From Bacteroidales bacterium (GTDB taxonomy: Bacteria > Bacteroidota > Bacteroidia > Bacteroidales > UBA932), in contig JAFURF010000070.1 in the NCBI GenBank assembly GCA_017471965.1, positions 94,636-158,635 on the forward strand: DNA of 64,000 nt, given 5' to 3'. This document shows positions 33,282-34,240 of the stretch, one piece after another; position 1 is the first letter of the stretch; each line of letters begins with the position of its first letter. Below the pieces are notes generated by a model. The model searched no databases. It was not told where the DNA came from and worked only from the letters and a program-made list of their open reading frames with translations. A program made the translations under genes and the position numbers.

Positions 33282-33299
33282 GAGGCATAGAAGAGCCTC
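33282..33299 (-). terminator. Small hairpin at the end of folP
   Basis: GAGGC/GCCTC stem starting at the folP stop codon, followed on the minus strand by ATTCTTTC. A weak terminator candidate just before the TlpA operon promoter. Confidence 0.45.
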
Positions 33300-34150
33300 T
33301 AAGCGATCATGTTGAAAAGTGTAACCACCTGCCTTGCTTCCTTGACGTCATGGACACGCAGGATATCCGCCCCATTCATAAGGGCAAGCATATGCGCTCC
33401 CTGTGTGGCCGGAAGAGAATCTTCAGGAGCAATGCCTAGAGGTTTATATATCATGCTCTTGCGCGACACTCCTACGAGACATCTGCGTTTCCTGCCACCC
33501 TGAGAACTTCCGTCATTCTGAGAACTTCCGTCATTCTGAGCGAAGCGAAGAATCTCCCCCAGATCCCTGAGCAACTGCCAGTTCTGCTCAACGGTCTTGG
33601 CAAACCCGAATCCGGGATCGAGGATCCAGTCCCTGACGCCAGCGTCATCAGCACGTACAGCGAATTTCCGGAAATAAGAAATGACATCTTCCGTCACATC
33701 CTTATAATCCGTAAGATACTGCATGTTTTCAGGATTGCCTCTCTTGTGCATGGCAACATACTGAAGGCCAAGTTTCCCCACAATCTTCAGCATATCAGGA
33801 TCGTCTTCTCCTGCAGAAATGTCATTGACGATGAAGTCCCCTATCAAATCGTAAGCATTCTGCACCACAGACGACCAATATGTATCGATGGACAGCGTTA
33901 TATCCGGAAATCTGCAAGCAACTGCAGCAAGAACAGGCTCCAGTCTCTTCCACTCCTCATCAGCACCAACCGCTTTAGAACCAGGACGGGTAGAGCAGGC
34001 ACCTATATCTATGATGTCTGCACCTTCATCCAGAAGCATGCCTATACGGGAAAGTGCCGCCTCCGGATCCTGACATCTGCTCTGTGCGAAATAGGAATCA
34101 TCGGTCAGATTGACGATGCCCATTATGTCTATCTGTCGTTTCGTTTTCAT
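33299..34150 (-). CDS. folP: Dihydropteroate synthase with repeat-derived insertion
   Basis: Joins p-aminobenzoate to dihydropterin pyrophosphate in folate synthesis. The 283-residue TIM-barrel enzyme starts MKTKRQIDIMGIVNLTDDSY (ATG at 34150; an upstream in-frame start at 34228 would run through the promoter and a repeat). Family motifs: DIGACSTRPGS, NDISAG, DPGFGFAKTVEQN and the C-terminal LVGVSRKSMIYKPLG. Between the last two, residues ~197-221 read ILRFAQNDGSSQNDGSSQGG, about 15-20 extra residues encoded by a REP-like element with an 18-bp tandem duplication (33500-33553). The frame stays open. Divergent from tmk. Confidence 0.95.
   Translation of the reverse strand: MKTKRQIDIMGIVNLTDDSYFAQSRCQDPEAALSRIGMLLDEGADIIDIGACSTRPGSKAVGADEEWKRLEPVLAAVACRFPDITLSIDTYWSSVVQNAYDLIGDFIVNDISAGEDDPDMLKIVGKLGLQYVAMHKRGNPENMQYLTDYKDVTEDVISYFRKFAVRADDAGVRDWILDPGFGFAKTVEQNWQLLRDLGEILRFAQNDGSSQNDGSSQGGRKRRCLVGVSRKSMIYKPLGIAPEDSLPATQGAHMLALMNGADILRVHDVKEARQVVTLFNMIA
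33500..33553. repeat. REP-like element inside folP, with 18-bp tandem duplication
   Basis: Two tandem copies of an 18-bp unit (33500-33517 and 33518-33535) run into CTGAGCGAAGCGAAGAATC. On the minus strand this reads as the ...TTCGCTTCGCTCAGAATGAC repeat of Bacteroidales intergenic regions. It is in frame within folP and encodes RFAQND followed by two GSSQND-type units. A similar but diverged copy lies at 34173-34199. Confidence 0.75.
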
Positions 34151-34172: not shown

Positions 34173-34199
34173 AGATTTCTCGACTTCGCTTGAAATGAC
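34173..34199. repeat. REP-like fragment in the folP-tmk promoter region
   Basis: A 27-base segment containing TCTCGACTTCGCTTGAAATGA. It aligns along its length with the folP-internal repeat read on the minus strand. It lies between the divergent folP and tmk genes and may supply part of the tmk -33 region. Confidence 0.55.
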
Positions 34200-34217: not shown

Positions 34218-34240
34218 TAAGATAACATTTAAACATTCAT

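Follow-up and report, generated by a model that had tools for sequence, protein, structure and literature searches.

A REP-like palindromic repeat inserted in frame into folP of a Bacteroidales bacterium and into other protein genes of its genus

The folP gene of a Bacteroidales bacterium, which encodes dihydropteroate synthase (DHPS), contains a copy of a dispersed palindromic repeat (REP) that adds residues to the predicted enzyme without breaking the reading frame. The insertion is shared with an independent MAG, in which it holds a different number of repeat units, and other copies of the repeat lie inside further genes of the genus, with a bias in the frame in which they are read. We consider it quite probable that the REP inserted into an ancestral folP and has been carried since then as a tolerated, near-neutral selfish passenger, with parallel events across the genus.

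An exact copy of the repeat lies in frame within folP

The features of the window, i.e. the whole stretch of 64,000 nucleotides that was analysed, are listed in Table 1. The folP frame matches Pterin_bind of Pfam over the whole profile (1.4e-64) and runs across the insert with zero stops. The inserted peptide, ILRFAQNDGSSQNDGSSQGG, sits between NWQLLRDLGE and CLVGVSRKS and is made up of ILRFAQND-GSSQND-GSSQ, the reading of the REP followed by that of its repeated distal half, which recurs at an 18-bp period downstream of the REP in the direction in which folP is translated. The REP itself is an exact 26-base copy of the palindromic repeat. A preliminary description of this DNA had proposed a REP-like repeat in frame within folP, and the exact core copy, the stop-free frame and the complete Pfam profile bear this out; the 18-bp tandem duplication that it mentioned was recovered as well. 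As to the peptide units it had given, RFAQND is present, but there is one full and one partial GSSQND unit instead of two full ones. The translation contains NLT, STRPG, DPGFGFAKT, SRKS and RVHD, which we take to be the catalytic motifs of FolP.

Table 1. Positions of folP and of the repeats in and near it, numbered along the window
Feature	Position	Strand	Basis or location
folP (dihydropteroate synthase), 283 aa, ATG at 34150	33299..34150	-	open frame and Pterin_bind match
REP core GTCATTCTGAGCGAAGCGAAGAATCT on the + strand; folP on the - strand reads ILRFAQND	33530..33555	+	dispersed-repeat match
18-bp tandem of the REP distal half, 2.3 copies, giving QNDGSSQNDGSSQ	33500..33540	.	100% match
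Second REP-like repeat copy, TCATTTCRAGCGAAGTCGAGAAATC type	34173..34199	-	upstream of folP, about 22 bp from its ATG

The insertion is shared with an independent genome

FolP was aligned over 33 proteins, those of the window and of 32 of 45 loci, the other 13 loci being without a frame that passed the motif filter; from another locus set 26 of 30 were kept, and the remaining loci were likewise without such a frame. The linker from GFGFAKT to IYKP comprised 58 residues in the window folP and 52 in one other locus, L201. In the 31 other relatives it spanned 37-47 residues, 41 being the commonest length (22 of 31) and the 37 belonging to an alignment row that ends early. The REP insert is absent from these 31 proteins and the linker lengths differ, in keeping with the idea of an insertion; the window linker is 17 residues above the commonest length, the preliminary estimate having been about 15-20 extra residues. 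The same variation could be taken as a sign of ordinary, lineage-specific loop growth that merely resembles a REP, as the linker varies in relatives that are without any REP. However, 26 bases of the insert copy a dispersed repeat exactly, for which 0 matches are expected in the window and 0 were found in reversed controls, and the 20-base REP core, searched at ≤3 mismatches, gave one match in the window, an exact one, and 0 in 100 shuffles. Loop growth is refuted at the DNA level by these repeat searches and controls, and we give it practically no credence.

L201 is the folP of Bacteroidales bacterium RGIG5188, an independent MAG from sheep caecum that stems from a separate project, here called the sister MAG. 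In its folP the REP occupies the identical junction and is followed by one 18-bp unit less than in the window, so that the length of the insert varies in frame between the two MAGs. An artefact of assembly or binning might be suspected from the state of the source MAG, which consists of 85 contigs and is 64% complete. Yet the REP in folP is not an assembly error, because the independent sheep-caecum MAG, from another project, carries a near-identical gene together with the REP, with the same junction and a different unit number; in addition, the remainder of folP and the flanking genes align through between the window and the sister MAG, and the chance of an artefact appears negligible. No empty site was found at the nucleotide level, the nearest insert-free gene being ~68% identical in protein.

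In the part of folP that excludes the insert, 265 codons with the stop, comparison of the two genes gave 8 synonymous and 4 nonsynonymous changes. Within the shared insert there are two changes, both nonsynonymous (A to V and S to Y), which are too few to demonstrate neutral drift. The 8 to 4 ratio outside the insert argues against a decaying gene, i.e. a folP that was inactivated by the REP and whose frame is still unbroken, as do the full-length Pfam match, the lack of a stop and the five intact motifs. A second DHPS gene could be missing from the source MAG, which is incomplete; however, the source genome and the sister genome each have one Pterin_bind match, and inactivation of folP strikes us as very improbable. 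A FolP that is made with its insert, and that works, would fit these data better.

The repeat is patchy yet abundant in the genus

The source genome contains 8 copies of the REP at ≤2 mismatches and a reversed-pattern control gave 0. Four of the 8 copies lie inside long frames, namely folP, an NTP_transferase gene, an HI0933 flavoprotein gene and an M23 peptidase gene; beyond their Pfam families we presume the second and third to be manC-like and BaiN-like, respectively. A search for further coding copies had been suggested, and these genes supply them; the Pfam matches of the M23 protein are located downstream of the REP only. The other 4 copies are outside any frame recognisable as a gene, and the one frame among them that was searched in Pfam (L003) had zero matches. 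In the sister genome G210, where 19 copies were counted at ≤3 mismatches, REP-bearing loci could be aligned with six of the 8 source-genome loci. Across the genus, 72 of 151 genomes carry the REP, with 898 copies in all and a maximum of 95 per genome (24-base pattern, ≤1 mismatch; reversed-pattern controls 0), a distribution that is patchy yet abundant. The preliminary description had spoken of a Bacteroidales-type repeat, which is too broad, since only 37 of 393 genomes of the order carry it at ≤1 mismatch.

The repeat resembles CGTC-tagged REPs

The structure of the element was derived from a non-random sample of 157 REP copies that are non-identical over 100 bp on either side, composed of the loci from the source-genome and genus searches plus 100 regions, mostly of genomes G005, G028, G049, G057 and G072. 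The hairpin is 21 nt long and imperfect, with an ATTCT/AGAAT stem, a tandem G-A mismatch, GC and a GNA triloop, so that the stem starts with AT and consists of 5 bp, two G-A mismatches and 2 bp. One stem pair covaries, being T-A in 89 copies, C-G in 44 and mixed in 0 of the 133 of 157 copies without a pattern mismatch; in these same 133 copies the loop is GAA, GCA, GTA or GGA, the pattern having left only its middle base free. The tag is TGTC in 134 and CGTC in 8 of the 157 copies (142 together), the folP copy having CGTC, and the tail after the stem is C followed by T (T in 145 of 157), with the next base not fixed. Pairs within 120 bp of each other were found in three head-to-head and one tandem arrangement. 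GNA loops with sheared G-A pairs have extra stability; calculated with standard DNA parameters, the stability of the hairpin was no better than that of shuffles (z about 0). An Rfam scan of the window gave zero matches.

To judge from these sequence features, the element most resembles the published CGTC/TGTC-tagged REPs, which are on record from five phyla, Bacteroidetes being one of them (Di Nocera et al. 2013, PMC3733652). These are described as having a terminal unpaired CGTC, often TGTC or CCTC, an 8-9 bp stem in which positions 1 and 2 are complementary AT, a loop of 4-5 nt with named exceptions, a tail that mostly fits CCA, and an arrangement mainly as head-to-head dimers, the last two being common but not universal; some copies lie inside genes of several species, where they encode extra residues, and the account presents the family as being without a dedicated transposase (PMC3733652). 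The repeat studied here has in common with them a TGTC/CGTC tag at one end, a short stem starting from AT, scattered copies and in-gene copies that add residues, and, as with them (PMC3733652), no repeat-flanked transposase was found, here among 32 Y1_Tnp loci. In contrast, its tail is CT where theirs is mostly CCA, close head-to-head pairs are rare in this sample, and its loop is drawn with 3 nt against 4-5, a difference that hinges on how the mismatches are drawn (PMC3733652). Because tail and rarity of pairs differ, we call the element CGTC-like and not a settled CGTC member.

Copies inside other proteins are biased in frame

Counting as ORFs the longest frames of at least 150 aa with the element internal, we found 79 of the 157 sampled copies in 72 ORFs, all of which were scanned against Pfam. 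In 28 ORFs, with 30 copies, the REP lies between Pfam matches of one protein; for two of these, L125 (HPPK, i.e. folK) and L126 (AdoHcyase), the second flank was inferred from the count of two matched stretches. The flanked genes include manC, wecB, murE, metG, tilS, folK, asd, lplA, metH and lacZ-type genes, and aroDA carries a REP in two genomes at different sites; beyond their Pfam families, the names of these genes are presumed. Per genome, flanked copies made up 9 of 27 sampled copies in G072, 6/17 in G005, 3/8 in the source genome, 3/30 in G049, 2/25 in G028 and 0/9 in G019. Left out of the count are some likely genes, namely the source-genome M23 gene, prmC (L063) and recO (L153), as well as ORFs with the REP ahead of the likely start (L042, L046, L048, L059 and L079).

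Four of the six frames of the REP are stop-free. The 30 flanked copies are read as HSERSEES in 16 cases, VILSEAKNL in 9, ILRFAQND in 5 and FFASLRMT in 0, whereas FFASLRMT is the reading in 14 of 48 copies in the other, mostly unrecognised ORFs (Fisher p 0.0006; these ORFs hold 49 copies, one without a frame call). We take this bias as evidence for selection. Tandem half-units are common among the REP copies. In flanked genes, 10 of 11 such cases have a spacing divisible by 3, versus 12 of 31 for copies lying outside the 72 ORFs (p 0.003); for the other ORFs the figure is 10 of 13, and the result is partly built in because only open frames count as genes. What it does show is that steps like the 18-bp one in folP are typical of the element; it is no proof that selection acted on every step.

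The inserts in the manC-like, BaiN-like and M23 proteins are common to source and sister, as seen in alignments of 11, 5 and 10 proteins, respectively. These alignments omit partial or second matches (manC L245 of G056, and the split BaiN matches of G066 and G056), and the BaiN alignment also omits genomes without a BaiN match. In the sister, the BaiN loop exceeds that of the source genome by 7 residues. Longer loops of other genomes (manC and M23 of G021, M23 of G032) did not contain the REP at ≤6 mismatches. The same BaiN loop in G032 (L250:2420) holds a REP of its own, with 2 mismatches, in the opposite orientation and independent. In two species, G157 (L052:507-1967) and G057 (L090:379-1776), an NtrC-type regulator has a REP at one and the same junction of its linker; the two proteins are 77% identical, and the site may go back to an old common insertion or to parallel ones. 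In G072, a 588-aa open frame (L056:1260-3023) contains four REP copies in three frames and has zero Pfam matches.

The insert in FolP would lie opposite the active site

The position of the insert was derived from an alignment with solved DHPS and from the published topology. It aligns after about residue 211 of the solved DHPS, at a short loop that leads from a helix to the strand ending in SRKS. The preliminary description had put the insert close to the substrate-binding motifs, where it could affect activity or sulfonamide response. However, in the TIM barrel of DHPS, helix-to-strand loops are on the N-terminal side and are considered to add to stability, and the active site occupies the opposite end (PMC3098144), and the published resistance-linked insertions are at about residues 186-189, in helix alpha-6 (PMC10328974), neither of which agrees with such closeness. 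By this alignment and topology the insert should be on the face opposite the active site, a position that would make any influence on catalysis or on the response to sulfonamides unlikely.

The same evidence weighs on an adaptive reading, according to which the loop extension tunes FolP activity, dimerisation or the sulfonamide response. Retention of the insert in two MAGs would suit this reading, and the loop could be near the dimer interface, which is formed by helices 6 to 9 (PMC3098144). Against it stand, besides the topology (PMC3098144) and the different site of the resistance-linked insertions (PMC10328974), the finding that both differences in the shared insert are nonsynonymous and that one whole unit differs, and the presence of the same repeat in many unrelated proteins. 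We therefore regard adaptation as improbable.

A passenger insertion would instead have proceeded as follows. A CGTC/TGTC-tagged REP would have entered folP in the common ancestor of the source species and the sister MAG, landing, with one of its stop-free frames in register, in a helix-to-strand loop that tolerates changes in length. Today folP is found with one 18-bp half-unit and with two, the step between them preserving the frame. FolP retains its catalytic motifs, and the insert would persist as a near-neutral passenger. Similar events may have brought the REP into many housekeeping proteins across the genus, in their loops and linkers, purifying selection retaining only in-frame insertions at tolerant sites. 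We infer both this order of events and the neutrality of the folP insert.

Relation to known in-gene repeats

Rickettsia palindromic elements (RPEs) are palindromic repeats that have become in-frame parts of conserved protein-coding genes (Ogata et al.; PMC2229807, PMC3733652), and RPE-4 and RPE-6 have been equated with CGTC REPs (PMC3733652). The insertions described here, 30 copies spread over 28 ORFs (for two of them one flank was deduced), are like RPEs in being in frame within conserved protein genes. The elements differ in size, with about 26 bp plus half-units here versus RPE lengths of 105-146 bp (PMC2229807), and in host, the genus apparently not being an intracellular parasite, going by its records. 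A Rickettsia enzyme with an RPE insert was made and was active, with a changed substrate affinity (PMC2229807). The likeness concerns the way of working only and is drawn from descriptions, translation of the insert here being predicted from the frame.

It had been stated that such insertions are known in Rickettsia and are little described here. The first part is too narrow, as they have already been published outside Rickettsia (PMC3733652); the second held in so far as no account of in-gene palindromic repeats in Bacteroidales was found in the open-licence literature, where peptide words such as RHSERSEES and RFAQND had no match either. The kind of element is already known; what is new is the scale and the host lineage. 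In-gene REPs are common in the genus, in enzymes such as FolP, MurE, AroA, MetG and FolK. They form a natural data set of where folded proteins tolerate insertions, with variants in unit number and orientation at one site, and they advise caution against interpreting such loops as adaptive or drug-related.

Candidate movers of the repeat

GTAG REPs and REPINs are short hairpins that spread as non-autonomous elements with RAYT transposases. The present repeat is likewise a short hairpin and would also be moved by an enzyme acting in trans. Unlike the GTAG REP/RAYT system, its tag is TGTC/CGTC, and a REP was near Y1_Tnp in 0 of the 32 loci examined (≤5 mismatches, flanks up to about 1.5 kb). Y1_Tnp is present in 65 of 72 REP-bearing versus 45 of 79 REP-free genomes, and, among 62 genomes at least 90% complete, in 28 of 30 versus 18 of 32 (p 0.001), both comparisons being uncorrected for relatedness. 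One exception is G159 (98% complete), with 8 REPs and zero Y1 matches. A tentative idea, which we think rather unlikely, is that chromosomal Y1 (RAYT-like) transposases continue to spread the REPs of the genus in trans. If true, it would answer a question posed as open in PMC3733652, namely what moves CGTC REPs, and gut Bacteroidales would be a live system in which a selfish hairpin is still adding loops to essential enzymes.

Two loci are worth recording here. In G049, a short frame with DYIQMNP, presumably resembling a tyrosine transposase remnant, is followed by a REP (L160:1110-1586) and has zero Pfam matches. On contig C48 of G000 (L041:190-340), TTTTGTCGTCTGG and CCAGACGACAAAA lie in facing orientation near a Y1_Tnp gene, separated by about 100 bp, and this pair is perhaps that gene's own terminal inverted repeat.

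A second repeat upstream of folP

The second repeat of Table 1 is found in 25 of 61 genus genomes, with up to 46 copies in G057. Its copy in the window (TCATTTCGAGCGNAGYCGAGAAATC type) is at the same place in L201. If folP starts at its listed ATG, this copy is untranslated; a longer ORF from an ATG at 34228 would translate it, as SFQAKSRNLF.
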